Positions 7,556 through 26,627 are shown, numbered from the stretch's first letter. The stretch is DNA of 34,915 nt from Dethiobacter sp. (GCA_003605065.1 QZJM01000068.1:1-34915), one strand, 5' to 3'. The notes: a model not told the origin generated them from the letters alone. Numbers and translations are program-made.

Positions 7556-9550
7556 ATGCTTTTTTACTTGAAAAGAATTGGTGTCTTTATATGCCGGTGC
7601 GGCACCAATATAGCCGCCAGCGTGGATATAGACGTGGTTGTCAAAGCTGCCGGGGAAATGCCGGGAGTGGTCTATGCCGGCGATTACGGGTACCTGTGCT
7701 CGGAAACCGGTCAGGCTATGATCCGTGAAGCCATAGCGCTGCAGCAGCTCCATGGCCTGGTAGTAGCCGCCTGCTCGCCGCACCTGCATGAAACTACCTT
7801 TCGCAGAACAGCAGCATCAGCCGGAATGAACCCCTATCTCGCAGAAATGGCCAACATCAGGGAACATTGTTCTTGGGTGCACCGGGATAAACAGGAAGCT
7901 ACCGCTAAAGCTGCGGCCCTGGTGCGCACCACCGCAGCCAGAGTCGCCCACAGCCGGGAGCTTGAAGCAGGAGAAATTTCCGTTGAACCCTGTGCTCTTG
8001 TCATCGGCGGCGGGATCGCCGGCATTCAGGCAGCCCTGGATATTGCCGAGGCGGGCTACCAGGTTGACCTGGTGGAGAGAATGCCCAGCATTGGTGGGCG
8101 CATGGCCCAGCTCGATAAAACTTTCCCCACCCTGGACTGTTCCTCCTGCATACTCACTCCTAGGATGGTAGAAGCAGCCTCTCATCCCGCCATTAATCTC
8201 TTTACCTTTTGTGAAGTGGAAAAAGTAGAGGGCTTTGTAGGCAATTTTTCCGTAGTACTTAGAAAGAAGGCCCGCAGCGTGGATCCCGGGAAATGTACCG
8301 CCTGCGGTCTTTGCGGGGAGATTTGCCCCGTTAAGGTAAAAAGTGAATTCGAAGAAGGCCTGGGCCTGCGCAGTGCCATCTATACCCCCTTTCCCCAGGC
8401 CGTACCAGCCATTCCGGTCCTAGACAGGGCCTCCTGCCTCTGCTTCAACGGCTCAGCATGCGGCCTGTGTCTAAAAGCCTGCCCGGCCGGTGCATTAGAC
8501 TTTGAGCAGCAGGACGAGCTTTTGGAGCAAAAGTACGGTGCCATTGTGATGGCTACAGGCTTTAACCTCCTTAACATGGAGGGGTTTGGTGAATTAGCTT
8601 ATGGCAGGCACCTCGATATAATCACCAGCCTGCAGCTTGAACGGCTCCTGAGCCCCTCGGGACCCACCGGCGGCAGGATCCTTAAGCCTTCCAGCAAGCA
8701 GCCGCCGCAGAGCATCGTCTTTGTCCAATGTGCCGGCTCCAGGGATAAATCGCACAGCGCCAGGCCTTACTGTTCCAAAATATGCTGCATGTACAGTGCC
8801 AAACACGCTCTGCTGTTCAAAGAACAATACCCCGAGGCCTGGGTTTACCTTTTCTATACGGATATTTGCACCCCCGGCAAGGGTTTGGAGGAATTATACC
8901 TCCGTGTGGAAGAGAAGTACGGTGTCTTGTATCTAAGGGGCCGCGTAAGCAGGGTAACCCCCGGGGGCGATATGCTGCTGGTGGAGGGGATCGATACCTT
9001 GAGCGGGCACCCCGTAAAAATTGAGACCGATATGGTTGTCCTGGCCCCGGCCATAACGGCCCGAAGTGACGCCGCCGAAGTAGCGCGCCTGCTTGGTATC
9101 AGTACCGATAATCACGGTTTCTTCACAGAAGCCCATCCCAAGCTGCGACCCGTGGAAACCCGGTTGGCGGGGATTTTTTTGGCCGGTGCCTGCCAGGGGC
9201 CCGGAAACATTCCCGAGACGGTTATCCAGGCCGGTGCTGCCGCGGCCAAAGTTATTGGCCTGCTCAGCTATGATCTCCTGGTGGGCAACCCCTATGTCTC
9301 CTTTGTAAATGAATCCCTTTGCAGCGGCTGCCTGGACTGTAAAGAGGTATGCCCCTACGGAGCTATCATGGAAAAAACCATCGAGGGAAAGATCCATGGT
9401 AAAAATGTCAAGCGCCGGGTTGCGGAGGTCAACGGGATCCTCTGCCAGGGGTGCGGTTCCTGCACTGTGGCCTGCCGTCCCGGCGCTCTGAACCTTAACG
9501 GTTTCAGCGCTGAACAGCTGCTGGCGGAGGTGGATGCCATATGCCTGTAA
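7556..9550 (+). CDS. hdrA: HdrA-type FAD iron-sulfur protein
   Basis: Heterodisulfide-reductase subunit A family, a cytoplasmic flavoprotein that in methanogens and many anaerobic bacteria splits electron pairs between ferredoxin and a second acceptor. In the 664 residues I see an N-terminal RIGVFICRCGTNI block and an FAD Rossmann motif GGGIAGIQAA (about 150-160). CSSCILTPRM follows, then ferredoxin motifs CTACGLCGEICP and CGLCLKACP. The C-terminus has two more clusters, CSGCLDCKEVCP and CQGCGSCTVACRPG. Length matches HdrA without fusion. No HdrB/C follows. The start is uncertain: ATG 7556 touches its GGGAGG, and TTG 7568 would give the family-typical start MKRIGVF. The gene overlaps flpD by 10 bp. 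Confidence 0.92.
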   Translation: MLFYLKRIGVFICRCGTNIAASVDIDVVVKAAGEMPGVVYAGDYGYLCSETGQAMIREAIALQQLHGLVVAACSPHLHETTFRRTAASAGMNPYLAEMANIREHCSWVHRDKQEATAKAAALVRTTAARVAHSRELEAGEISVEPCALVIGGGIAGIQAALDIAEAGYQVDLVERMPSIGGRMAQLDKTFPTLDCSSCILTPRMVEAASHPAINLFTFCEVEKVEGFVGNFSVVLRKKARSVDPGKCTACGLCGEICPVKVKSEFEEGLGLRSAIYTPFPQAVPAIPVLDRASCLCFNGSACGLCLKACPAGALDFEQQDELLEQKYGAIVMATGFNLLNMEGFGELAYGRHLDIITSLQLERLLSPSGPTGGRILKPSSKQPPQSIVFVQCAGSRDKSHSARPYCSKICCMYSAKHALLFKEQYPEAWVYLFYTDICTPGKGLEELYLRVEEKYGVLYLRGRVSRVTPGGDMLLVEGIDTLSGHPVKIETDMVVLAPAITARSDAAEVARLLGISTDNHGFFTEAHPKLRPVETRLAGIFLAGACQGPGNIPETVIQAGAAAAKVIGLLSYDLLVGNPYVSFVNESLCSGCLDCKEVCPYGAIMEKTIEGKIHGKNVKRRVAEVNGILCQGCGSCTVACRPGALNLNGFSAEQLLAEVDAICL

Positions 9551-12676: not shown

Positions 12677-12884
12677 TAAGATAAATTCCCACCTTTAATC
12701 CGTCTGGATATTATTTTATCATATTATTTTTAGTACCGCTAAAAAAATGTTTTATTCCCCAATTATTTTGCTTTATGATATAATCGTACTGGCTGGTCAA
12801 CAAAAATTTGACAAAGCCCTTTATTTTCAGAACAATTTTAAATATAATGGTTTTGCAGAAGAAAAATTTAGCGTGAGGAAAAAT

Positions 12885-13721
12885 ATGAAAAAAATGGATC
12901 TTGAAGAAAGAGAAGGAAAATATGTTCAATCGGTGGAAAGGGTTCTCAATATTGTGGAAGTTATGGCCCAGGAAGGTACGCCTGTTACTGTAACAGACCT
13001 TGCGGAAAAGGTCGGACTGAAAATTAGTACCGTGCACCGGCTGCTGTCCACCCTGACTCATCGGGGATATGTGGAGCAGGACCCTGATGACAACAAATAC
13101 AGGCTGGGCTTAAAATTGCTGGAAGTGGGAAATGCCGCCCTGTATTCCTCTGACATAAGAAGCGTAGCCAGACCCTACCTGGAGGAACTGGTGGAAAGAT
13201 GCAATGAAACCGCTAACCTGGCCATATTGGATAAAACTGATGTCGTTTATATTGATCAGGTTGAATCCAAAAATTTCATTATCGTGAAGATGTTTGCACA
13301 GGTGGGTAATCGTGGTCCGGTACACTGTACTGCTTCGGGAAAAGCGCTGCTGGCTTTTCTTCCCGACGAAAAACTGGAGGAAATATTGAACCAGACTCAA
13401 CTGACAAGGTTTACCAATGAAACCATTACAGATGCGCAGCACTTGAAAAAAGAACTAAAAAGAATCAGGGAAGAAGGGTATGCCCTGGACTGGGGCGAAA
13501 GGGAAGAACATGTCCGCTGCATTGCCGCCCCCGTATTTAATCATGAAGGCAGGGTGGCTGCCAGTATTAGTGTTTCCGGGCCGAGCACCCGTATAACTAC
13601 CTATTATATGAAAAACGAGCTGGTGGATATCATCAAAGATATTGCCGCTAAAATCTCTCATAGAATGGGCTATAATGCCAATGGTAAAAATGGTAATGGT
13701 GCTGACCGCCCTGTGGAGTAG
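12885..13721 (+). CDS. IclR-family regulator 1
   Basis: A 278-residue IclR regulator. The N-terminal winged HTH (about 12-70) contains VTVTDLAEKVGLKISTVHRLLSTL. The C-terminal effector domain (about 85-260) includes the conserved NLAILDKTDVVYIDQVES and HCTASGKALLAFLP blocks. A short NGKNGNG tail follows. The ORF track starts at 12747, but the first 46 residues are AT-rich and unlike IclR proteins; GAGGAA at 12875-12880 fits ATG 12885. Effectors in the family are usually small organic acids or aromatics. It is followed by a terminator and then the FMN glutamate-synthase-like gene, and it is clearly paralogous to regulator 2, so both probably control the redox locus. Confidence 0.93.
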   Translation: MKKMDLEEREGKYVQSVERVLNIVEVMAQEGTPVTVTDLAEKVGLKISTVHRLLSTLTHRGYVEQDPDDNKYRLGLKLLEVGNAALYSSDIRSVARPYLEELVERCNETANLAILDKTDVVYIDQVESKNFIIVKMFAQVGNRGPVHCTASGKALLAFLPDEKLEEILNQTQLTRFTNETITDAQHLKKELKRIREEGYALDWGEREEHVRCIAAPVFNHEGRVAASISVSGPSTRITTYYMKNELVDIIKDIAAKISHRMGYNANGKNGNGADRPVE

Positions 13722-13835: not shown

Positions 13836-13852
13836 TTTCCACGATACGGAAT
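13836..13852 (+). promoter_or_regulatory. Candidate IclR operator O1
   Basis: TTTCCACGATACGGAAT is an imperfect palindrome with TTCC..GGAA arms, ending 8 bases before the -35 box. It shares its first ten bases, TTTCCACGAT, with the site downstream of the nuoE promoter. IclR-type operators are often TGGAAA/TTTCCA palindromes. Binding is inferred. A position just upstream of -35 would suit activation or repression. Confidence 0.5.
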
Positions 13853-13860
13853 ATTATTTC

Positions 13861-13889
13861 TTGACAGTTAGCAGGGGGGATATTATAAT
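13861..13889 (+). promoter_or_regulatory. Consensus sigma-A promoter of the gltS-like 1 operon
   Basis: TTGACA (13861-13866), a 17-base spacer and TATAAT (13884-13889): a perfect consensus about 72 bases before the start codon. Confidence 0.88.
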
Positions 13890-13961
13890 CAAAAAAAGCC
13901 TATTTAAATTAGAATATATTTTCATAATACGGAAACTTCTCAACGGGGAGGAGAGAGAGGG

Positions 13962-15566
13962 ATGAGTTTCAGCAAAGGTTTAAACGCTTCCAGCAGTACT
14001 TTAACTAAAAACCGCACTCCTGGCAGTGTGTCTCCTTTCAGCGGGCTGTGCAGCACCTGTATAGAGGGCTGCATGGGACTCTGCGAGGTAGGCAGGTCTG
14101 CATTCCGGGGAAGGGAGGTTATTTACCCGCAGCCGTTCGGTACAACTACATTTGCATCGGAAAAAAATTACCCGGTAGATTTTTCTCATTTTAACATCAT
14201 GGGCAGTGCCGTTGGCGCCCGGGGAATTGAGGCCGACAGCAATAAAGCTGTTTTTCATGCTGTAGATACCGGGGTATCCCTGGGAGAGAAAGAAAAGATC
14301 AAGCTTAAACTTCCGGTGGTCATAGCTGCCATGGGTTCAACCAAGGTGGCGGCCGATAACTGGGAGGGCTTGGCAGCAGGAGCGGCCCTATCCGGGGTTG
14401 CCATTGTTGTTGGGGAAAACGTATGCGGCATGGATATGGGGGCAGAGTTTAAGGACGGCAGGGTGGTAAACTCTCCGCAGCTTAGGAAAAGAGTGGAAAG
14501 CTTCTGGCGCTGGTATGACGGCTACGGCGTTATTGCTGTCCAGGCCAACGTGGAGGACAGCGGGTTTGGCGTTTACGAATATGCTATAAAAGAGTTGGGA
14601 GTCCAGGCGGTTGAGCTGAAATGGGGGCAGGGTGCCAAATCAATAGGCGGGGAAGTAAAAATAACCGAACTTGAGAAAGCTGTGGAGCTTGCCAAACGCG
14701 GCTACCTGGTTTATCCCGATCCCATGGATCCCACCGTCCAGGAACTTTTTAAAAAAGGAAGCATCAAAGAATTTGAGCGTCATTCGCGTATCGGTATGTT
14801 GGAAGAACAAACTTTTCTGCAAAGAGTGAAAGAACTGCGAGAGATGGGGGCCAAGTATGTTTTCCTAAAAACGGGGGCTTACAGGCCTTCCGATCTGGCT
14901 CGTGCCGTAAAACTGGCTTCGGAAGCCAGAATAGATCTTCTTACTATTGATGGTGCCGGCGGGGGAACAGGTATGAGCCCGTGGAGAATGATGAACGAAT
15001 GGGGTATTCCCACTATTTACCTGGCAGGCTTATGCTATCAATATCTCCACGTTTTAAAGGAGGACGGCGCGTATATTCCTCCTGTAGCCCTGGCGGGCGG
15101 GGTTTCCCTTGAAGATCATGTTTTTAAGGCACTGGCCCTGGGAGCACCCTACTTTAAAATGGTAGGAATGTCACGGTCTCCGGTAACAGCGGTTTTAGTG
15201 GGCAATACCATTGGCAAGTTTATAAAAAATGGCAAGGTGCCCGCCAGTGTTTCGGAAAAATATGGTGCTTCTCTGGAGGATATTTTTGTTTCGGCTTATA
15301 AATTGAAAGAAAAACTGAACAGTGATTTTGACAATTTCCCGGCAGGGGGCCTCGGTCTTTATACTTATTTTGAAAGAATTACTACGGGCCTGCAACAGCT
15401 TATGTGCGGGGCCAGAAAATTTTCTCCGGAATATATTACCAGAGATGATATTGCTGCGCTTACGGAGGAAGCAGCCAGGGTTTCAGGCATAAAACATGTC
15501 CTGGATATGGACCTTGAGGAGTCAAAAGAAATTTTAAAGCGAAATTTCGCCTCCATACAGATATAA
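13962..15566 (+). CDS. FMN-binding glutamate-synthase-like protein 1
   Basis: A 534-residue protein matching the FMN/synthase barrel of glutamate synthase large subunit, without glutaminase or GXGXG domains. The FMN-barrel region (about 150-470) contains ELKWGQGAKSIGGEVK and IDGAGGGTGMSPWRMMNEWG. N-terminal cysteines 30, 33, 37 and 41 (C-x2-C-x3-C-x3-C) probably bind an Fe-S cluster. The canonical C-rich CPVGVAT loop of GltS is replaced by SPVTAVLVG, so it is not an ordinary glutamate synthase. The substrate is unknown. A consensus promoter precedes it, and no terminator separates it from iclR2 79 bp downstream. A close paralogue lies at 20234. Confidence 0.85.
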   Translation: MSFSKGLNASSSTLTKNRTPGSVSPFSGLCSTCIEGCMGLCEVGRSAFRGREVIYPQPFGTTTFASEKNYPVDFSHFNIMGSAVGARGIEADSNKAVFHAVDTGVSLGEKEKIKLKLPVVIAAMGSTKVAADNWEGLAAGAALSGVAIVVGENVCGMDMGAEFKDGRVVNSPQLRKRVESFWRWYDGYGVIAVQANVEDSGFGVYEYAIKELGVQAVELKWGQGAKSIGGEVKITELEKAVELAKRGYLVYPDPMDPTVQELFKKGSIKEFERHSRIGMLEEQTFLQRVKELREMGAKYVFLKTGAYRPSDLARAVKLASEARIDLLTIDGAGGGTGMSPWRMMNEWGIPTIYLAGLCYQYLHVLKEDGAYIPPVALAGGVSLEDHVFKALALGAPYFKMVGMSRSPVTAVLVGNTIGKFIKNGKVPASVSEKYGASLEDIFVSAYKLKEKLNSDFDNFPAGGLGLYTYFERITTGLQQLMCGARKFSPEYITRDDIAALTEEAARVSGIKHVLDMDLEESKEILKRNFASIQI

Positions 15567-15645
15567 ATCAAGCTATTTTTGCCCTTAAGGTTGCCTTTTC
15601 TCCAGGAGCCGTAGCAGCTTGAGCTCATTAGAGGAGTGATTTGCC

Positions 15646-16437
15646 ATGGGGATGGTGAGCGGTCCTGTTAAGGAGAAATCGGTTCAATCTGTGGAGAGAA
15701 CACTGCGTATTCTTGAGCTTATGGCCGAAAAAGGAAATCCTATGGCTTTGAGTGATATCAGCAACCAGCTGGGCTTAAAAATCAGCACAACACACCGCCT
15801 GCTCAAAACGTTGATTATCAAGGGGTTTGCCGAGCAGGATCCCTATACTGGGAAATACCAGCTGGGGATTAAGACTTTCAGGATTGGTAACACAGCCCTG
15901 TATACGTTGGATATCCGCTCTGTGGCCAGGCCATATCTTAAGCACCTTATGGAAAAGTACAAAGAGACGGCAAACCTGGCTATTCTGGACCACGGTGATG
16001 TTGTGTATATCGATCAGGTCGAATCGGAAAAAATGGTGAAGATGATTGCCAGGCTTGGCAGCAGGGGGCCTTCTCATTCCAATGCTGTGGGGAAAGTTCT
16101 CCTGGCATATCTCAGCAGTTTGGAACTGGAGCGTTATTTAAAGAGTAAAAAACTGGAAAAGTATACTGCGCAGACAATTACTTCCCCGGAACTACTGAAA
16201 AAAGAACTGGAGAAGGTAAAAAGTCAGGGCTATGCCCTGGATCTTGAAGAGACTGAAGAGGGAATATGCTGCGTGGCCGCTCCTGTCTGGAACCACCTGG
16301 GAAAAGTAAATGCGGCTATCGGTATTTCCGGACCCAGTAACCGTATCAGCTTCAGCTATATAAAAAAAGAACTGGCGCAGGCTGTAAAGAATACGGCCGA
16401 AGAAGTATCTCTGAAGCTGGGGTATCAGGATATCTAG
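15646..16437 (+). CDS. IclR-family regulator 2
   Basis: A 263-residue IclR regulator. The HTH (about 30-60) contains LSDISNQLGLKISTTHRLLKTL, and the effector domain has NLAILDHGDVVYIDQVES and SNAVGKVLLAYLS. It is very similar to regulator 1 over its whole length, with shared stretches such as LDIRSVARPYL-type and YIDQVES, so the two arose by duplication. GAGGAGTG precedes ATG 15646 (ATG 15652 is also possible). It is probably co-transcribed with the FMN protein and ends at a strong terminator just before the nuoE promoter. Autoregulation through O1, and control of nuoEFG through O2, is the simplest model. Confidence 0.93.
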   Translation: MGMVSGPVKEKSVQSVERTLRILELMAEKGNPMALSDISNQLGLKISTTHRLLKTLIIKGFAEQDPYTGKYQLGIKTFRIGNTALYTLDIRSVARPYLKHLMEKYKETANLAILDHGDVVYIDQVESEKMVKMIARLGSRGPSHSNAVGKVLLAYLSSLELERYLKSKKLEKYTAQTITSPELLKKELEKVKSQGYALDLEETEEGICCVAAPVWNHLGKVNAAIGISGPSNRISFSYIKKELAQAVKNTAEEVSLKLGYQDI

Positions 16438-16476
16438 GCACATTTGTTAAATAATTGGAAATAAATTTACTTTACT

Positions 16477-16507
16477 AAAGAGGATCACTGCGATCCTCTT
16501 TTTTTTG
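16477..16507 (+). terminator. Strong intrinsic terminator after iclR2
   Basis: AAAGAGGATC and GATCCTCTTT form a perfect stem around ACTGC, with eight T residues following. Confidence 0.92.
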
Positions 16508-16539
16508 GGATTTATTTTCATTTCCTTAAAAAAACATTA

Positions 16540-16569
16540 TTGACAGTACAAATACCCCTGTTTTATAAT
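16540..16569 (+). promoter_or_regulatory. Sigma-A promoter of the nuoEFG-like operon
   Basis: TTGACA (16540-16545), an 18-base spacer and TATAAT (16564-16569). The expected start near 16576 lies just before operator O2. Confidence 0.85.
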
Positions 16570-16579
16570 GGAGTAAATG

Positions 16580-16596
16580 TTTCCACGATGTGAAAA
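16580..16596 (+). promoter_or_regulatory. Candidate IclR operator O2
   Basis: TTTCCACGATGTGAAAA is a near-perfect palindrome (TTTCCAC / GTGAAAA, 6 of 7 pairs). It sits 11 bases after the -10 box, where a bound protein would block initiation. It shares TTTCCACGAT with O1. The repressor role is inferred from position. Confidence 0.55.
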
Positions 16597-16630
16597 TCAT
16601 TTCAAAAAATACTGTACAAAAGAGAAAATC

Positions 16631-16729
16631 ATGGCAAAAACAATTAAATTTCCGGCGGATGAAAACACAAAAGGAAAAGATTTATTCTTAAACGGAAACC
16701 GTTTTAAAAATTTGAAAGGGGTGAATTAA
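16631..16729 (+). CDS. Candidate 32-residue leader peptide before nuoE
   Basis: ATG 16631 begins MAKTIKFPADENTKGKDLF and the frame ends TAA one base before the nuoE ATG. AAAAGAGA lies upstream at a workable distance. The peptide is hydrophilic and resembles nothing I know. The nuoE Shine-Dalgarno lies within its last codons, so translation of the two would be coupled. It may be a small subunit, a regulatory leader or chance. Confidence 0.35.
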   Translation: MAKTIKFPADENTKGKDLFLNGNRFKNLKGVN

Positions 16730-16730
16730 A

Positions 16731-17267
16731 ATGGAAGAGAGGACAAAAACAGACCTAGAAAACCTTAAAAAACAAAATGGCAGTTCTGTTGTTTCATTAC
16801 TGCAGGAAGTCCAGGAAAAGTACAACTATCTCCCCGAGGAATTATTGAGGGAGATAGCCAAAGAAAGAAACATCCCCCTTATGGACATTTACAGTGTGGC
16901 GACTTTCTATAAAGCATTCAGCCTGTCCCCCAAGGGCAAGCACAAGGTTGTAACCTGTTCCGGCACTGCCTGTCATGTCCGGGGAAGTGAAAAGGTAACC
17001 AGGGAAATTTCCCGTACACTGGGTATAGAGTCGGGTCATACCACTGAGGACGGACTGTATTCCCTGGAAAACGTCAGCTGTCTGGGTGCCTGTGCTCTGG
17101 CTCCGCTTGTTGTTATCGACGGGGAGTATCACGGCAGCATGACATCTGCTAAAATCCTGGAGATTTTGAACGGGCATACAGCAGGAAAAAAAGAAAATGG
17201 GTGTTGCTGTCATGATCAAGGGAAAAAGGAAAATGACTGCCGCCAGGTCAGTTTGCCAAGGGCGTAA
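16731..17267 (+). CDS. nuoE: NuoE/HydC-like [2Fe-2S] thioredoxin-fold subunit
   Basis: A 178-residue subunit of an NADH-oxidising module (NuoE of complex I, HydC of bifurcating hydrogenases, StnC of Sporomusa-type transhydrogenase). The helical N-terminus (about 15-60) has the typical YNYLPEELLREIAKERNIP. The [2Fe-2S] ligands are Cys76 and Cys81 (CSGTAC) with Cys117 and Cys121 (CLGAC). An unusual tail after residue 150 has GCCCHDQ and a further Cys170, which normal NuoE lacks and which may bind metal. AAAGGGGTG precedes the ATG. It is first of the nuoEFG-like set (after the candidate small ORF), with its own promoter and operator. Confidence 0.92.
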   Translation: MEERTKTDLENLKKQNGSSVVSLLQEVQEKYNYLPEELLREIAKERNIPLMDIYSVATFYKAFSLSPKGKHKVVTCSGTACHVRGSEKVTREISRTLGIESGHTTEDGLYSLENVSCLGACALAPLVVIDGEYHGSMTSAKILEILNGHTAGKKENGCCCHDQGKKENDCRQVSLPRA

Positions 17268-17349
17268 AGTTATCTTTTTTCAGCTGGCAGTATAGAAATT
17301 TGCTATTTTTTGGGTAATTCTTTTATTTAGTTTTTGGAAGGAGATTGCT

Positions 17350-19215
17350 ATGAACGTTTTACATAGCAGGTTAAAAACAACTCAAGATTTGGAAAAGCTT
17401 CGGGAACAGCTGAGAAAAAACAGGGAAGAAAAAAGCACTTACCTGGCAGTCTGTGGTGATACAGGCTGTGCTGTCTGGGGCTCAAAAACGGTCAAAAACT
17501 TTTCTCAGGAATGCCTGGAAAAAAAGGGGCTTGCCGGTACAATTGGCCTGAAATTTACAGGCTGCCTGGGTCTCTGCGAAAGCGGTCCCGTTGTCATTGT
17601 CTTTCCCCAGGAAATATTTTATCAAAAAGTCCAGGAGGACGACGTAGAAGAGATTATTGAAAAAACAGTTTTAAAAGGTGAAGTTATCGAACGCCTGCTA
17701 TACAATGATCCTGTAACCGGCGAAAAGTATATTTATGCCCGGGATATACCTTTTTATAAAAAACAGCAGAGGACACTCCTTGCCAGCAACTGGAAAAATG
17801 ATCCTACCAGCATTGAGGACTACCTGGCTCTGGACGGGTATGAAGCATTTGAGCAGGCTTTAACGAAGATGACACCGCGGGAAATTATTGCCGAAGTAAA
17901 AAACTCCCTGCTCAGGGGGCGCGGCGGGGCCGGTTTTCCCACCGGTGCCAAGTGGGAAGAATGTTATGAAGTCCATGCTGACCAAAAATATATTATTTGT
18001 AATGCCGATGAAGGTGATCCGGGAGCTTTTATGGATAGAAGCTTGTTGGAAGGAAACCCCCATTCCGTCCTGGAAGGGCTGATCATCGGCGGTTATGCTA
18101 TTGGTGCCCGGGAGGGGATCGTCTATATCAGAGCTGAATACCCTACGGCGGTGGCTAAGGTACGCCTGGCCATTGCCCAGGCGGAAGAACTGGGGCTTTT
18201 AGGGGAAAACATTCTGGGCTCCGGTTTTAATTTTAAGGTATCTGTGAGTATCGGGGCGGGTGCCTTTGTCTGTGGGGAAACATCGGCCCTGGTCGCTTCT
18301 GTGGAGGGACGCGTCGGCGAGCCCCGTCAAAAGCCTCCCCATCTTGCGGAGCGGGGCTATCTTAACAAGCCCACGGTAATTAATAATGTGGAGTCCCTGG
18401 CCAATATACCGTACATTATCCGTCATGGGGCTGTCAGCTACTGCCTTACCGGCACAGAAAAATCTAAGGGGACGAAGATTTTTTCCCTGGTAGGGAAGGT
18501 CCTCAATACCGGGCTGGTGGAGGTTCCCCTGGGCATGACTTTAAGGGAGATCATTTTTGAGATCGGCGGCGGTATCAAGAACGGGAAACAATTTAAAGCA
18601 GTGCAAACGGGAGGCCCTTCCGGCGGCTGCCTGCCTGCTTCACTGCTGGACAGCCCCACTGATTTTGAAGAGCTTAGTGCAGCCGGTTCTATGATGGGTT
18701 CCGGCGGTATGATTGTCATGGACGAGGAGACCTGCATGGTAGATATCGCCCGCTATTTTCTGCGTTTTCTGGAAGATGAATCCTGCGGCCGCTGTTTTTC
18801 CTGCCGGGAAGGCATCAGCAGGATGCTGGAAATGGTGGAGGATATCACCAGGGGGGAAAGTTCGCCCGGGCAGCTGGATCTTCTCAGGGAACTGGCCCAT
18901 GTCGTGAAGGATTCTTCCCTGTGCGGCCTGGGCCAAACGGCAGCCAATCCCGTCCTGGCCACCATACGTTATTTTGAAGATGAATACCTGGCCCATATCC
19001 TGGAAAAAAGATGCCCGGCCGGAGTGTGCCGGGAGCTGATTCAATTCAGTATTAATGAAGAACTCTGCCAGGGTTGCGGCCTCTGCCTGAAAAAATGTCC
19101 GGGCGAGGCCATCCGGGGGGAAAAGAAACAGCCCCACGCCATCCTGGGGGATAAATGCACCAAATGCGGTATTTGCCTGGAGACGTGCAAATACAATGCC
19201 GTGCTAAAAAGTTAA
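17350..19215 (+). CDS. nuoF: NuoF/HydB-like NADH-binding flavoprotein
   Basis: A 621-residue FMN subunit, the NADH site of the module. Domains in order: a thioredoxin-like [2Fe-2S] domain (Cys35, 40, 72, 76), then the NADH/FMN domain (about 175-400). That domain carries the glycine-rich RGRGGAGFPTGAKWEE and the NADEGDPGAFMDR block. An SLBB domain follows, then the N3-type [4Fe-4S] site CGRCFSCREG with Cys near SSLCGLG. Two C-terminal ferredoxin clusters (CQGCGLCLKKCP, CTKCGICLETCK) complete it. This layout is that of HydB/HndC-type subunits, longer than complex I NuoF. GGAAGGAG precedes ATG 17350. No hydrogenase, formate dehydrogenase or membrane subunit accompanies it. Confidence 0.95.
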   Translation: MNVLHSRLKTTQDLEKLREQLRKNREEKSTYLAVCGDTGCAVWGSKTVKNFSQECLEKKGLAGTIGLKFTGCLGLCESGPVVIVFPQEIFYQKVQEDDVEEIIEKTVLKGEVIERLLYNDPVTGEKYIYARDIPFYKKQQRTLLASNWKNDPTSIEDYLALDGYEAFEQALTKMTPREIIAEVKNSLLRGRGGAGFPTGAKWEECYEVHADQKYIICNADEGDPGAFMDRSLLEGNPHSVLEGLIIGGYAIGAREGIVYIRAEYPTAVAKVRLAIAQAEELGLLGENILGSGFNFKVSVSIGAGAFVCGETSALVASVEGRVGEPRQKPPHLAERGYLNKPTVINNVESLANIPYIIRHGAVSYCLTGTEKSKGTKIFSLVGKVLNTGLVEVPLGMTLREIIFEIGGGIKNGKQFKAVQTGGPSGGCLPASLLDSPTDFEELSAAGSMMGSGGMIVMDEETCMVDIARYFLRFLEDESCGRCFSCREGISRMLEMVEDITRGESSPGQLDLLRELAHVVKDSSLCGLGQTAANPVLATIRYFEDEYLAHILEKRCPAGVCRELIQFSINEELCQGCGLCLKKCPGEAIRGEKKQPHAILGDKCTKCGICLETCKYNAVLKS

Positions 19216-19228
19216 GGGGGTGGTGTCA

Positions 19229-19921
19229 ATGCTAAATTTAACCCTGAACGGCCTGGAGATTTCCGTGGAGAAGGGGACGACTCTGCTGGAAGCGGCCAAA
19301 TTTTATGGTATGGAAATCCCCACGCTCTGCAGCGATGAAGCTTTAAGCCCTTACGGGGCCTGCAGGCTCTGTCTGGTGGAAATCGGTACGGGTAACCATT
19401 CCAGGCTGGTTTCCTCCTGTACTTATCCTGCCAGGGAGGGTTTAACTGTAAGGACGCACACGGAAAGGGTCGTACAAGCCAGAAAACTTCTCCTCGAGCT
19501 GTACCTGGCCACCTGTCCTTCTTCGAAAACCATCCAGGATATGGCCTCCAAATTAGGTGTGACAAAGGTTCGTTTTAAACAAAAACATGAGGAGTGTATC
19601 CTCTGCGGCCTTTGCGTCAGGATGTGCGCTGAGCAGATGCAGGGCAAAGCCATCGGTTTTGTAAAAAGGGGCATAAAACGCCGTATTACCGCTCCCTTTG
19701 CTAAAAAATCGGAGGATTGCCGCCTCTGCGGAGGCTGTATGTATATCTGTCCTGCCTGCCAGGCCAGGTGCCAGGGGCCGCAGGAAAAAAGCCCCATTTG
19801 CAACGCTTGTTTGAACCTTTCTGCTCCCTGCCTTGATTATTTTGAAGAAGCCATGTGCTACATGGACCCCTGTGTGGCCTGTGAACTGGGCACGGGAAGG
19901 AAAGCAAAAGCACAAAGTTAA
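19229..19921 (+). CDS. Stand-alone NuoG-N-like iron-sulfur protein
   Basis: A 230-residue protein equal to the Fe-S N-terminus of NuoG, HydA or FdhA, without a catalytic domain. The [2Fe-2S] ferredoxin ligands are Cys34, 45, 48 and 64. The normal His-Cys [4Fe-4S] site is absent: only Cys96 (LATCPSSKT) remains. Two [4Fe-4S] sites follow at Cys123-133 (CILCGLCVRMC) and Cys164-174 (CRLCGGCMYICP). A C-terminal tail adds Cys177, 181, 191, 194, 201, 210, 215 and 218. It probably wires NuoF to a separate partner. The track start GTG 19220 overlaps the AAGGGGG RBS; ATG 19229 is better. It is 13 bp after nuoF. Confidence 0.88.
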   Translation: MLNLTLNGLEISVEKGTTLLEAAKFYGMEIPTLCSDEALSPYGACRLCLVEIGTGNHSRLVSSCTYPAREGLTVRTHTERVVQARKLLLELYLATCPSSKTIQDMASKLGVTKVRFKQKHEECILCGLCVRMCAEQMQGKAIGFVKRGIKRRITAPFAKKSEDCRLCGGCMYICPACQARCQGPQEKSPICNACLNLSAPCLDYFEEAMCYMDPCVACELGTGRKAKAQS

Positions 19922-19974
19922 CAACACCGGCGTTATAATGAAAATGACCGAACTTGAGCTGGTACGCTTACCTT

Positions 19975-20217
19975 GGGCGGAAATGTTGCCGTTGTTTTAA
20001 ATCAGCAAGTTCGGAATTAAAAGCGCGAGGAGCTTAAGGTCAAGGCGAGCAACTGTCTCCCGCGCAGCGAGTTGTTGGGAGCCTCCTGAGCTATGAGCGC
20101 CACCTTAATGTGAGTTGAACTTGCCTAAAACAACGGCAACTTTCCGCCCATCGTGGAACTTGGCTCCAGTTGAACCAGAACTGCGCCACCAGCAAAACGC
20201 TGCGCTATTTTCATACT
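19975..20217 (+). repeat. MITE-like palindromic repeat, copy A
   Basis: The core 19975-20149 has terminal inverted repeats GGGCGGAAATGTTGCCGTTG and (from the right) GGGCGGAAAGTTGCCGTTG, with further internal pairing such as CTCCC/GGGAG. A 68-bp arm (20150-20217) follows. The reverse complement matches 24021-24256 closely. It fills the spacer between the NuoG-like gene and gltS-like 2 and ends at that gene's RBS. No ORF of its own; non-autonomous element or structured RNA. Confidence 0.75.
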
Positions 20218-20233
20218 AGAGAGGAGAATGATC

Positions 20234-21817
20234 ATGACTCTTTCCAGGTTGAATGCCTCTGCCGCTACTCTAACGAAAAACCGCACCGAAGGTTCGATCA
20301 GCCCTTTTAGCGGTATGTGCGTGACATGTGTGGACGGATGTGTAGGCATGTGTGAAATAGGAAAATCAGCTTACCGGGGACATGAAACTATTTATCCCCA
20401 GCCTTTTGGCATTATAACTACCGCTTCGGAGAAAAAATACCCCCTGGATTATTCGCATTTTTCCATCATGGGTACCGCCGTAGGGGCTGTAGGGATAGAA
20501 GCCGACAGCGACAAGGCTATTTTTCCGGCAGTAAATTTACAGACGAGGGTAGGCCGGGGGGAGGGTATCAAGGTAAAACTGCCCTTTGTTATTCCCGGTA
20601 TCGGCTCTACCGATGTGGCCAGGAATAACTGGGAAGGGCTGGCCATAGGTTCCGCCCTGGCGGGAACCATTTTGACTATCGGTGAAAATGTCTGCGGTAT
20701 GGACGAACAGTCCGTCATTAAGGACGGCCGGGTTGTAAGCACAGTTGACCTGGACAGGAGGGTTAAGCTTTTTAAAGATTGGCAGAGAGACGGGTACGGT
20801 GCCATCGTCGTCCAGGCCAATGTGGAAGATACCAGGCTCGGTATTCAGGAGTATGTTATCAGCCAGCTTGGCGTGGAAGTGGTGGAGCTTAAATGGGGTC
20901 AGGGGGCCAAGGACATCGGCGGGGAAGTTAAAATTAAAAGCCTGGAGAAAGCCCAGATGCTGCAAAAAAGAGGATATGTGGTTCTCCCCGATCCGGAAAA
21001 CCCTGCTGTGATCAACGCTTTTCACAAAGGGGCCTTCAAGGAATTCGAACGGCATTCGCGTATCGGCATGGTAGAGCTGGAATCATTCCTGCAGAGGGTT
21101 GAGGAACTGAGAAAAGCAGGTGCCAGGTACGTATTTCTGAAGACAGGGGCGTACCGGCCGGCGGATCTGGCTCGTGCCGTAAAATTTGCCTCCCTTGGCA
21201 AAATCGACATGCTCACCGTAGACGGAGCCGGGGGCGGCACCGGAATGAGCCCCTGGAGAATGATGAACGAGTGGGGTATTCCTTCGGTGGAGCTGCATTC
21301 TCTCCTCTACCAGTACTGCCGGAAGCTGGCCCTTAAAGGGGAGTATGTGCCCGATATAGCCCTGGCCGGCGGTTTTACCCTTGAAGACCAGGTATTTAAA
21401 GGGCTGGCCCTGGGGGCTCCTTACGTTAAACTTATCGGTATGGCCCGGGCCCCCATCGCTGCTGCTATGGTGGGTAAGACCATCGGCAGGCGCATCCACG
21501 AGAACAAGCTGCCTGTTTATGTGGAACGCTTCGGGCAGAACGTGGAAGAAATCTTTGTCACGGCTTCGGCTCTTAAGGAAGAATTGGGGGAGGAAACTTT
21601 TAATAAAATACCCCCCGGGGCCCTGGGCCTCTATACCTACTACGAGCGTCTGGCCCAGGGGTTAAAGCAGCTTATGTGCGGGAGCCGCAAATTCGATCTC
21701 CAGTACATTTCCCGGGATGATATCGGGGCGTTAACCAGGGAAGCGGCCGAGGTAAGCGGGATCACTTATATTATGGACCTGGACAGGGAAGAGGTAGACA
21801 AAATCCTGGAGATGTAA
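20234..21817 (+). CDS. FMN-binding glutamate-synthase-like protein 2
   Basis: A 527-residue paralogue of the protein at 13962, collinear over its whole length. It has the same N-terminal four-cysteine motif (Cys29, 32, 36, 40; CVTCVDGCVGMC), the barrel motifs KWGQGAKDIGGEVKIK and DGAGGGTGMSPWRM, and a late single cysteine (LMCGSRKF). The CPVGVAT cluster loop of true GltS is absent (ARAPIAAAMVGKTIG instead). The track starts at 20228; GAGGAG at 20221-20226 spaces better to ATG 20234, which also aligns with paralogue 1. As the last member of the nuoEFG-like unit it is the best candidate for the partner that takes or gives electrons. The reaction is unknown. Confidence 0.85.
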   Translation: MTLSRLNASAATLTKNRTEGSISPFSGMCVTCVDGCVGMCEIGKSAYRGHETIYPQPFGIITTASEKKYPLDYSHFSIMGTAVGAVGIEADSDKAIFPAVNLQTRVGRGEGIKVKLPFVIPGIGSTDVARNNWEGLAIGSALAGTILTIGENVCGMDEQSVIKDGRVVSTVDLDRRVKLFKDWQRDGYGAIVVQANVEDTRLGIQEYVISQLGVEVVELKWGQGAKDIGGEVKIKSLEKAQMLQKRGYVVLPDPENPAVINAFHKGAFKEFERHSRIGMVELESFLQRVEELRKAGARYVFLKTGAYRPADLARAVKFASLGKIDMLTVDGAGGGTGMSPWRMMNEWGIPSVELHSLLYQYCRKLALKGEYVPDIALAGGFTLEDQVFKGLALGAPYVKLIGMARAPIAAAMVGKTIGRRIHENKLPVYVERFGQNVEEIFVTASALKEELGEETFNKIPPGALGLYTYYERLAQGLKQLMCGSRKFDLQYISRDDIGALTREAAEVSGITYIMDLDREEVDKILEM

Positions 21818-24020: not shown

Positions 24021-24256
24021 TTATGAAAATGGCGCAGCGTTTGCTGGTGGTGGAGCTCCGGGTTCAACTGTAACAAGTTCTACGATGGCCGTAAAGTTGC
24101 CATTGCTTTAGGCAAGTTCAACTCACACTAAGGTGGCGCTCATAGCTCAAGGCTCCCAACAACTCGCTGCGCGGGAGACAGTTGCTCGCCTTAACCTTCG
24201 CTCCTCGCGCTTTTAATTCCGAACTTGCTGATTTAAATCAACGGCAACATTTCCGC
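24021..24256 (-). repeat. MITE-like palindromic repeat, copy B (inverted)
   Basis: Reverse-complement copy of 19975-20217: the arm TATGAAAATGGCGCAGCG starts at 24021 and the palindromic core ends CAACATTTCCGC at about 24256. Differences are scattered substitutions and small indels. It follows the 5' side of the gamma-CA gene. The two copies bound a roughly 4-kb segment in inverted orientation. Confidence 0.75.
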
Positions 24257-24539
24257 TCAAAGTGGGAAAAAGTATACCAGTTTAAAATTCTCAACCTTAG
24301 TATATTTCGCCTTGTAACCCCAAATTCCTTTTAGCAGCAAGTCTAAAAGATTTACTTCAGGCAAAAAGGAAAGAAGTTGCTGTGAAAAAAAGCTTATGCA
24401 CAGCAGGAAAAATTTTTCCGAAGAAGAATTAATATATTTAAAGAAAGAATCGGAGGTCAGGGTTATTTTTTGCATTTTTTTACCTTATAGCGAAAGCTCC
24501 AGGCGGGAAGCTTAAAGACTTTAAGAAGGAGTGAACAAG
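24257..24539. other. AT-rich spacer before the GltD-FlpD gene
   Basis: No supported gene. The minus ORF 24257-24475 has a biased, AT-driven composition and no convincing family. A 39-codon plus frame at 24396 (MHSRKNFSEEELIYLKKES) lacks a good RBS. It probably contains the promoter of the next gene, but I see no clear -35/-10 pair. Confidence 0.35.
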
Positions 24540-26627
24540 ATGGCAAACAGCAACGGTGCATTAAAAGAGGGTTCTCCCGGGATACCCCCCTGTCAGGCAG
24601 CCTGTCCTATTCATCAGGAGGTACGGGAATACTTGCGCTTGATCGCCATTGGGGACTTTAACCGTTCCTTAGAGGTTATTAAAAAGGCAAATCCCGTTTC
24701 CTCGGTATGCGGGACTATCTGTGCCCATCATTGTGAAGACGAATGCAGGCGCCAGAATGTGGACGAACCCGTTTCCATTCGGGGCTTAAAAAGAGCAGCG
24801 GTGGAATTCGGCCAGGCGGATTTTGCCGCCCCGGCAAATGTAGATGCCGGTAAAAAAGTAGCTATTATCGGTTCCGGGCCGGCGGGATTAATCGCCGCTT
24901 ATGACCTTGCTTTGCAGGGCTGCCCCGTAACTATTTTTGAACGGGAAAAATACCTCGGCGGTGCTCCGCGCAACTTTATTCCCCTCTACCGCCTCCCCGA
25001 TGAGACTGTTGAGCGGGATATTGATAATCTTAAAAAATTAGGCGTAGAGTTTAGAACTGGAGTAGAATTCGGCACGGATTTTGGGTTGGAAGAATTGAAG
25101 AAGGAAGGTTTTAAAGCTGTACTTATAGCGGTAGGCCTTACGGCAAGCCGTGGCCTGCCTATCCCCGGAGCTGATCACAAAGATGTCCTTTTGGCCCTGG
25201 AATTTTTAAAGGCGGCCAAGAGAGATAACTTCAGGCTGGACGGGCGCGAGGTTATCGTAATCGGCGGCGGTAACGTGGCCATGGATGTGGCCCGCTCGGC
25301 AGTACGCTGTGGCGCAGCCAGGGTAAGACTGGCCTGCCTGGAGTCCGAAAAGGAAATGCCGGCTTTTTCCTGGGAAATTGAAGAGGCCAAGGAAGAGGGC
25401 GTTGAATTCAACTGCTCCTGGGGGCCAAAAGCTATCAAGGTGGAAAACGGCGGGATTACGGGGCTGGAGCTCAAAGAATGTACCGCTGTTTTCGATGCGG
25501 AAAAAAGGTTCAACCCCAGCTATAATGAGGAAAATATCCTTGTAATCCCCGGAAATACCGTCATTTTTGCCATCGGCCAGGGCTCCGACCTGGAAGCGGT
25601 GAAAAAAGCCGGTGTTCCCATAGATGAAAGAGGCCGCCTGGTGTTCGACCCGGCAACCATGAAAACCCCTCTGGAGGGAGTCTTTGCCTGCGGGGAGATA
25701 GTAGCCGGCCCCAGCACGGCGGTTAAGGCCATGGCCAACGGCAGGGTGGCGGGCATGTCCATTTATAACTATCTTGCCGGAAAACCTTTTGTGGCCTCCA
25801 TGGTCGCGGAGGAGACACCACTCTCCGAGCTGGCCGCTGATGTTGCCGAAAACGTCAAGAAAATAGCGCGCCATGAAATTCCCATGTTAAACGCTGCAGA
25901 GCGCTCCAGCAACTTCCTGCCCGTAGAAAAGGGTTACACCATGGCTATGGCCGTATGGGAGAGCCGCCGCTGCCTGGGTTGTGCTGCCGGTGCCCAGCGG
26001 ATCGTGGAAAAATGTGCCGACTGCCTTACCTGCCTGCGTACGTGTCCCTATAACGTTCCGGTGGTCAGCGACCAGGGCGACTTAATGATCCGCGATCACC
26101 AGTGCCAGGCCTGCGGTCTTTGCCTTACTGTCTGCCCCAACCTGGCCATCGAGTTCAGGGCTCCTTATATCGCCGAGGCGGAGGAGCAGCTTGAGCCTGT
26201 AGTCAGTAAACTAATGGCTTCCCGAAACGGGTCGCCGGCAGTGTTGGTTTTATCCTGCGGCCTGGGCGCCTATGCTCTGCCAGGATTTAATGAAGGCTTC
26301 TTAAAGAACAAAGGCGGGAATGTGGATGTTGTCAAATTCCCCTGTATTTCCAAAATTGACACCACCCACATCCTTAAAGCTTTCCAGCTGGGGGCGGATG
26401 CAGTTATTGTCGCGGGCTGTGCGGAAGAAGACACAAATAACTGTCCTTTCCAAAAAACCATGTACTGGGCCGGCCAGCGTGTCAGCCGCGTTAAGTCTAT
26501 CCTGAAAGATGTGGGCATCGAGGAGGAACGCCTTGCCCTCTGCAGCTTTGCCCCGGAAGCAGTGGATAATTTCGGAGAAGCTGTCAGCGAAGTTCTAACT
26601 AAAATTAACGAACTTGGCAAGCGGTAG
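24540..26627 (+). CDS. GltD-like NAD(P)/FAD oxidoreductase fused to ferredoxin and FlpD domains
   Basis: A 695-residue cytoplasmic electron-transfer flavoprotein. Order: N-terminal Fe-S domain of glutamate synthase small subunit/NfnB type (Cys18, 22, 57, 61, 65, 69). Next, an FAD motif IIGSGPAGLIAAYDLA (about 109-124) and a NAD(P)H motif VIGGGNVAMDVARSAV (about 240). Then two [4Fe-4S] sites, CADCLTCLRTCP and CQACGLCLTVCP. Last comes an FlpD/MvhD-like domain (about 565-690) with FPCISKID, GADAVIVAGCAEEDTNNCPF. It therefore joins a NAD(P)H flavin site to the kind of wire HdrA uses. AAGGAG fits ATG 24540 better than GTG 24531. It is a possible partner of HdrA or of the NuoEF-like module (inference). 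Confidence 0.88.
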   Translation: MANSNGALKEGSPGIPPCQAACPIHQEVREYLRLIAIGDFNRSLEVIKKANPVSSVCGTICAHHCEDECRRQNVDEPVSIRGLKRAAVEFGQADFAAPANVDAGKKVAIIGSGPAGLIAAYDLALQGCPVTIFEREKYLGGAPRNFIPLYRLPDETVERDIDNLKKLGVEFRTGVEFGTDFGLEELKKEGFKAVLIAVGLTASRGLPIPGADHKDVLLALEFLKAAKRDNFRLDGREVIVIGGGNVAMDVARSAVRCGAARVRLACLESEKEMPAFSWEIEEAKEEGVEFNCSWGPKAIKVENGGITGLELKECTAVFDAEKRFNPSYNEENILVIPGNTVIFAIGQGSDLEAVKKAGVPIDERGRLVFDPATMKTPLEGVFACGEIVAGPSTAVKAMANGRVAGMSIYNYLAGKPFVASMVAEETPLSELAADVAENVKKIARHEIPMLNAAERSSNFLPVEKGYTMAMAVWESRRCLGCAAGAQRIVEKCADCLTCLRTCPYNVPVVSDQGDLMIRDHQCQACGLCLTVCPNLAIEFRAPYIAEAEEQLEPVVSKLMASRNGSPAVLVLSCGLGAYALPGFNEGFLKNKGGNVDVVKFPCISKIDTTHILKAFQLGADAVIVAGCAEEDTNNCPFQKTMYWAGQRVSRVKSILKDVGIEEERLALCSFAPEAVDNFGEAVSEVLTKINELGKR

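Follow-up and report, generated by a model that had tools for sequence, protein, structure and literature searches.

A conserved Bfu-type NADH module with a glutamate synthase-like flavoprotein as its candidate third-substrate subunit

We analysed a 34,915-nucleotide stretch of DNA from Dethiobacter sp. (GCA_003605065.1 QZJM01000068.1:1-34915; hereafter the window), in which positions 13,836 to 21,817 encode NuoE-, NuoF- and NuoG-N-like proteins together with two glutamate synthase (GltS)-like FMN paralogues, GltS_A and GltS_B. By its domains and cluster ligands, the NADH module is the core of the bifurcating Bfu (HydABC) family and not a fragment of Nuo, and comparison with other genomes argues strongly for a conserved GltS-containing Bfu complex, best read as a new third-substrate branch of that family. 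We tentatively propose that BfuC, BfuB, BfuA and GltS_B may form one soluble enzyme, in which the FMN subunit GltS_B would handle 2-oxoglutarate/glutamate or a close pair as third substrate. A preliminary description had suggested a new, possibly bifurcating NADH:X oxidoreductase with X at the GltS-like protein. The conservation of the locus and the presence of the B2 ligands agree with that suggestion, but the system falls within the Bfu family (Schut et al. 2022, PMC9304861) and is not a free-standing class. GltS_B is likewise the conserved partner, for which a likely substrate, not named in that description, can now be put forward.

The Bfu core

Four genes make up the proposed system:

16731..17267, + strand: BfuC, NuoE/HydC-like [2Fe-2S] thioredoxin-like ferredoxin, 178 aa (PF01257, E 1e-47)
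17350..19215, + strand: BfuB, NuoF/HydB-like, 621 aa (PF01512, PF10531, PF10589, PF00037)
19220..19921, + strand: BfuA, NuoG-N/HydA-N-like, 233 aa, GTG start (PF13510, PF12838)
20228..21817, + strand: GltS_B, glutamate synthase-like FMN protein, 529 aa, proposed third-substrate subunit (PF01645)

The open reading frames and families are as first described, and the window proteins that were scanned include neither a hydrogenase nor a formate dehydrogenase nor a membrane arm (complex I/Nuo). BfuB combines 2Fe-2S thioredoxin-like, NADH/FMN, SLBB and 4Fe-4S domains with a C-terminal 2x[4Fe-4S] region, whose two Fer4 motifs correspond to the B3/B4 clusters towards ferredoxin. Its best PDB match is the NiFe-Bfu chain 7t2r_B (E 1e-231), aligned over nearly the full length including the C-terminal ferredoxin domain, and the B2 ligands C438, C476, H525, C531 and C536 of that chain align with C462, T500, H549, C555 and C560 of BfuB. 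Across 87 GltS-linked BfuB proteins, C462, H549 (87/87), C555 and C560 are invariant. The histidine ligand of the B2 [2Fe-2S] cluster is diagnostic of bifurcating BfuB and absent from non-bifurcating homologues (PMC9304861). All three proteins also fit the domain definitions of the family (PMC9304861): BfuB, defined by FMN/NADH (IPR011538), SLBB (IPR019554), NADH_4Fe-4S (IPR019575) and ferredoxin (IPR017896) domains, through PF01512, PF10531, PF10589 and PF00037; BfuC, defined by a NuoE domain (IPR002023) encoded with BfuB, through PF01257; and BfuA, defined by at least one 2Fe-2S plus 4Fe-4S ferredoxin domain, through PF13510 and PF12838. Judged from its sequence, the Bfu core is complete, with the NADH/FMN site, B1, the His-ligated B2, B3/B4 and C1.

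BfuA consists of the N-terminal clusters only ([2Fe-2S] and 2x[4Fe-4S]), with no H-cluster or other catalytic domain, followed by a C-terminal extension bearing eight conserved cysteines (C180-C221; 79 aligned rows). Its nearest solved chains are 9mqx_A and HydA, and in the AlphaFold2 (AF2) model its C-terminal half lies mostly below pLDDT 50. The domain search gave no match in BfuA to PF10588, which we take to represent the A3 cluster and which is present in an Fdh-type BfuA of the same genome; BfuA thus appears to lack A3, as expected of Bfu Type 2. The A5 cluster is another that Type 2 BfuA lacks; in the protein studied here, the eight additional cysteines lie in the poorly modelled C-terminal part.

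Conservation and co-divergence with GltS

A genome-wide scan recovered at least 560 relatives of GltS_B, and neighbourhoods were taken from the 80 nearest, all in other genomes and spanning at least 17 named phyla. BfuA lies directly 5' of GltS in 79 of these 80, an adjacency far beyond chance and one that had been named in advance as a check on the proposal. BfuB is present in 72/80 and BfuC lies 5' of BfuB in 67/80, with many of the loci that lack either gene being truncated by contig ends. The gap between BfuA and GltS is usually 0-50 nt (median near 23 nt). In the window it is 306 nt and consists mostly of a ~190-bp repeat with inverted ends, resembling a miniature inverted-repeat transposable element (MITE); as this repeat is multicopy in the genome (eight long copies, seven besides that at 19965-20155, plus many fragments), it is a lineage-specific insertion, which widens the gap.

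Bfu-linked GltS proteins form a single clade (60/60 tested, SH-aLRT 99), and pairwise distances are correlated between BfuA and GltS (0.83), BfuB and GltS (0.80) and BfuA and BfuB (0.78). GltS-linked BfuB also separates from the five other BfuB (HydB) paralogues of the genome (SH-aLRT 91), while the second Bfu copy of locus L079 falls with those five. The single clade, the distance correlations and the separation of BfuB together suggest one complex with a single origin and later spread. A genome of the same class has a tandem GltS pair behind one BfuABC set (L181, 9330-12860), with both copies in the Bfu clade. A GAF histidine kinase and a sigma-54 response regulator lie 5' of the GltS-Bfu operon in ~40 loci from many phyla (for example, L014, 1439-4556), 17 of which also encode a small protein that is rich in Cys and belongs to no known family. 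In addition, a LarA-like nickel racemase (nearest to the malate racemase LarAH6) lies 3' of GltS_B in L013/L128 and L129, with a TRAP transporter nearby in L013/L128.

Four of the five other BfuB paralogues have partners of their own. Two are encoded with formate dehydrogenase partners, one of these also with methylene-THF reductase, and the fifth is truncated by a contig end. Another (L147, 9300-13025, contig C1) accompanies a 1241-aa BfuA with Nfn/GltD-like and molybdopterin (formate dehydrogenase-like) domains and adjoins folD-like genes. At L146 (5732-11109, contig C49), BfuBC is encoded with sulfhydrogenase beta/gamma-like and DHODB-type subunits and no obvious BfuA, possibly representing another Bfu variant. 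The window's BfuB, the sixth in the genome, has GltS_B as its only conserved partner. On this evidence the proposal withstands the counter-case named for it, pairing with a distant hydrogenase or formate dehydrogenase. A fragment of complex I, or a diaphorase of a hydrogenase encoded elsewhere, was rejected as the main reading, given the partners of the other copies and the conservation of GltS_B.

A second architecture was also found among the GltS-linked BfuB proteins: 42 are unfused with two C-terminal [4Fe-4S] motifs (B3/B4), while 43 carry a fused GltD-like module for FAD and NAD(P). One further unfused protein with two [4Fe-4S] motifs has a GltD gene nearby, and one has neither B3/B4 motifs nor GltD. 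On the BfuB tree, the state switched between B3/B4 and GltD fusion at least seven times.

GltS_B and the wider GltS-like family

GltS_B is related, weakly but clearly, to the FMN domain of canonical glutamate synthase (GOGAT), aligning with the FMN subunit of the genome's own enzyme at hhalign probability 93 and 30% identity, with QGAK and GGTG motifs common to both. Its AF2 model has an FMN TIM-barrel fold, with GltS 1ofd among the foldseek matches; a sequence search of the PDB gave no match, and a profile search with alignment A2 matched designed TIM barrels only. Annotation of the family is limited to the generic glutamate synthase domain (PF01645). GltS residues Q969, K972 and E903 are kept as Q225, K228 and E153, and both Q969 and R992 act in 2-oxoglutarate binding in GltS. 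E153, Q225, K228, K305, D387, K391 and R407 are invariant across the whole GltS-like family aligned. Relative to GOGAT, GltS_B carries an insertion, and its N-terminal Cys4 motif (C31-C34-C38-C42), kept in 103 aligned members bar one Cys in one row, is a probable [4Fe-4S] site. Identity as an alpha-hydroxyacid oxidase was rejected, as the SNHGGRQ-type His motif is absent, DGAGGGTGMSP stands in its place and PF01070 is unmatched.

Forty loci from the window's phylum were sampled for the wider family. Bfu genes occur at 1/40 and IclR genes at 8/40, while 15 of the 40 have glutamine synthetase (glnA), ANTAR regulators, canonical GOGAT subunits or glutamate dehydrogenase (GDH), showing that the family as a whole does not need Bfu. 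The members with these nitrogen-related neighbours group in a single clade close to the Bfu-linked one, and the two do not differ at the active-site residues listed above.

Candidate third substrate and proposed reaction

Among 96 non-redundant Bfu-GltS loci, a glutamate-type GDH adjoins the operon in 17, where ~1.3 would be expected from a density of three GDH genes in 3.5 Mb; the counts include related genomes, so that formal (Poisson) significance is overstated, although the phyla are diverse. Thirteen of the 17 GDH genes share the strand of the operon and lie no more than 1.5 kb from it, either upstream or downstream, and two GDH subfamilies are involved, all carrying the glutamate-specific Lys and Ser motifs. 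Locus L135 adds a 2-oxoacid:ferredoxin oxidoreductase, and a distant GltS member (L145) lies between genes for pyroglutamate (PxpABC) and a 2-oxoacid oxidoreductase. No glutaminase (GATase_2) or GXGXG gene was found in 100 GltS-Bfu operon loci, and the sole GATase_2 match of the genome lies with the canonical GOGAT on another contig, suggesting that ammonia is a likelier nitrogen partner than glutamine. The GDH neighbours and, independently of them, a nitrogen-linked sister clade bearing the same active-site residues point to glutamate/2-oxoglutarate as the third substrate, an assignment held with moderate confidence.

We infer the reaction, its direction and the physical assembly of the complex from comparative evidence of this kind. 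Electrons would pass between NADH, the FMN/B1 site of BfuB, the BfuA clusters, the Cys4 cluster and the FMN of GltS_B, with the Cys-rich tail of BfuA as a possible bridge contacting the Cys4 cluster. At this FMN, 2-oxoglutarate plus NH4+ and glutamate, or a closely related couple of 2-oxo acid and amino acid, would be interconverted without a glutaminase, while a second branch would lead through C1-B2-B3-B4 to ferredoxin. The likely net reaction, in either direction, would be 2-oxoglutarate + NH4+ + 2 NADH + Fd(ox) = glutamate + 2 NAD+ + Fd(red). Running forward, the enzyme would recover low-potential electrons from reductive amination; in reverse, reduced ferredoxin would pull uphill NAD-linked glutamate oxidation, a mode that would fit syntrophs that degrade amino acids. 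In the fused form, the GltD (FAD, NAD(P)H) module in place of B3/B4 would direct electrons to NADP instead of ferredoxin. The system could represent a widespread bifurcating/confurcating glutamate synthase/dehydrogenase that uses ferredoxin together with NAD(H) and that also exists in a form with an NADP-linked GltD in place of the ferredoxin site, although we advance this with some reserve.

The 2-oxoglutarate/glutamate couple lies at about -0.12 V. Set beside E' values of ~ -280 mV for NADH and ~ -500 mV for ferredoxin (PMC9304861), this would make both bifurcating reductive amination and confurcating glutamate oxidation thermodynamically reasonable.

The overstated GDH significance and several further points weigh against this reading. 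The well-studied third substrates of the Bfu family lie near -0.4 V (PMC9304861), whereas the substrate proposed here lies above NAD, unlike H2 or formate, and would require a different branching order from that of the model enzymes; this is the main mechanistic uncertainty. GltS_B has Glu233 where GltS has Q978, the counterpart of R992 (R248) is uncertain in the alignment, and the AF2 model is of low confidence at the active-site loop 335-349 and the N-terminus. The [3Fe-4S] Cys motif after the FMN phosphate site is not found in GltS_B (P0006), while P0008 has CQRCNSGKC there. Glutamine synthetase operons at L196 and L204 hold GltS-like members beside a complete canonical GOGAT, and the genome studied has a canonical GOGAT of its own, which leaves room for a reaction other than glutamate synthesis.

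Alternative explanations

The same Bfu-GltS complex and electron path might instead serve a different pair of amino acid and 2-oxo acid, a glutamate with an N-substituent or a 2-hydroxy acid, a substrate choice that we consider unlikely while still giving it real weight. The similarity of the FMN TIM barrel extends to alpha-hydroxyacid oxidases and IDI-2, the Q978-to-Glu change and the insertion set GltS_B apart from GOGAT, a canonical GOGAT is already present in the genome, and the LarA-like racemase of L013/L128 and L129, accompanied in the former by the TRAP transporter, would fit such a substrate. However, the catalytic His motif of alpha-hydroxyacid oxidases is absent and the GltS-type GGTG present, and the glutamate-type GDH and GS/GOGAT neighbourhoods recur across many phyla or genera.

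It is improbable that the enzyme is NADH-dependent and non-bifurcating, with the module simply feeding GltS_B as in an NADH-GOGAT and with B3/B4 or GltD as relics or alternative inputs. Fdh, HoxEFU and complex I contain homologous NuoEF modules that are non-bifurcating (PMC9304861), and 2-oxoglutarate accepts electrons from NADH well with no need for coupling, but the B2 histidine is kept in all 87 GltS-linked BfuB proteins and B3/B4 or GltD in nearly all. We give very little credence to GltS_B as a non-catalytic electron-transfer or redox-sensing partner that ties the ferredoxin/NADH state to the control of glutamine synthetase and GDH. Non-Bfu relatives with glnA and ANTAR regulators beside a complete GOGAT, and the sensor kinase and sigma-54 regulator 5' of many Bfu-linked operons, would suit such a role, whereas the family-wide invariance of the seven catalytic-type residues (E153 to R407) would not. 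Finally, that GltS_B is a mere co-regulated neighbour of a complete NADH/ferredoxin enzyme BfuABC with a distant partner, such as the GltD-FlpD protein at 24531, is highly doubtful: BfuA has its own extra Cys-rich tail, the MITE-like repeat separates it from GltS_B in the window and GltD-FlpD is syntenic in several relatives, but GltS has a single origin and tight co-divergence with BfuA, the 79/80 adjacency extends across phyla while GltD-FlpD is found in close relatives only, and four of the five other BfuB have their own partners (the fifth being truncated).

Locus organisation and neighbouring genes

Further features of the window are:

12747..13721, + strand: IclR-family regulator 1 (PF01614 + PF09339), syntenic in relatives
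13861..13889, + strand: sigma-70-type promoter 5' of GltS_A, 12/12 consensus (consensus match only)
13962..15566, + strand: GltS_A, paralogue of GltS_B, 63% identity
15646..16437, + strand: IclR-family regulator 2 (IclR2; PF01614 + PF09339), syntenic in relatives
16477..16501, + strand: terminator-like hairpin 3' of IclR2, 10 pairs plus T run
16540..16569, + strand: sigma-70-type promoter 5' of BfuC, 12/12 consensus (consensus match)
19965..20155, + strand: MITE-like repeat between BfuA and GltS_B, inverted arms 19982-19999/20126-20143, not part of the system
24531..26627, + strand: GltD-like NAD(P)H/FAD protein with 2x[4Fe-4S] and an FlpD/MvhD domain (PF07992, PF14691, PF02662)

The two promoters and the terminator at 16477-16501 divide the locus into two apparent transcription units, GltS_A-IclR2 and BfuC-BfuB-BfuA-GltS_B. 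The placing of a GltS-like gene last in the unit of the NADH module thus stands for GltS_B, while GltS_A belongs to a separate unit. GltS_A groups with its three orthologues in a clade separate from the Bfu-linked one, and in three relatives (L013/L128, L129 and L130) a GDH occupies its place between the two IclR genes. Together with its own promoter and unit, these observations led us to reject GltS_A as a Bfu subunit, and, contrary to the view that both paralogues serve the complex, it is probably not part of it. In the window's lineage, the operon is probably under the control of the IclR regulators.

The GltS-like proteins had also been described as the only catalytic-looking partners in the locus, which overlooks the GltD-FlpD protein at 24531-26627. 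This protein is syntenic in L123, L124, L128, L129, L131 and L142, and as a separate downstream gene it is limited to close relatives, in several of which it sits 3' of CinA; it is a possible NAD(P)H/ferredoxin partner. A 664-aa HdrA-like protein with FAD and multiple [4Fe-4S] motifs is encoded upstream of the locus (7556-9550), another copy of the MITE-like repeat lies at 24082-24263, and the Rfam search returned a tRNA as its sole match.

Comparison with known systems

Our literature searches found no published link between GltS and Bfu. To our knowledge, the proposed enzyme would give the first case in which electron bifurcation is coupled directly to the assimilation of nitrogen or the oxidation of glutamate. 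If correct, it would add a third-substrate class to the Bfu family, tie central nitrogen metabolism to ferredoxin/NADH energetics in many uncultured phyla and give a testable function to a GltS-like family for which the sequence search found no solved relative, while the natural swap of B3/B4 for GltD offers a ready test of how a single-FMN Bfu core bifurcates. The main text of the Bfu family paper makes no mention of glutamate synthase and leaves 17 BfuB clades unassigned (PMC9304861).

The closest known systems are set beside the proposed one as follows. Bfu Type 2 enzymes (Wor-Bfu, Bam-Bfu; PMC9304861) share the BfuBC core with all cluster ligands, a short non-catalytic BfuA and an extra third-substrate subunit, but here that subunit is a GltS-like FMN protein, BfuA has an 8-Cys tail and B3/B4 gives way to a fused GltD in many members. 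The bifurcating [FeFe]-hydrogenase HydABC has the same NuoE/NuoF-like core and HydA N-terminal clusters, whereas in the present system the H-cluster domain is absent and a GltS-like subunit is found instead. GOGAT, including the archaeal-type three-subunit form, shares with GltS_B the FMN TIM barrel of its synthase domain, QGAK, GGTG and the conserved Glu of the GEGG/GENV motif. GltS_B differs in having no glutaminase, GXGXG domain or [3Fe-4S] motif, in its N-terminal Cys4 and in its attachment to a Bfu core.

The GltD-fused relatives have parallels of their own. The Stn/Nfn-Bfu transhydrogenase (Sporomusa type; PMC7483475, PMC10482914) shares with them the BfuBC core and a GltD/NfnB-type module; in Nfn-Bfu, however, the NADP-binding NfnB-type domain resides in BfuA and there is no GltS (PMC9304861), while here GltD, if present, is fused to BfuB and GltS is added. 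The BfuBC core has been called absolutely conserved in cofactor content (PMC9304861), to which the GltD-fused relatives are exceptions, like the sub-type I BfuB of Hydrogenedentota (PMC11406978), in which DPD_II plus an FAD/NAD(P) (GltD-like) domain likewise replaces B3/B4. Sub-type I was described with [FeFe]-hydrogenase (PMC11406978), whereas the GltD fusions reported here occur in GltS-linked operons of many phyla.

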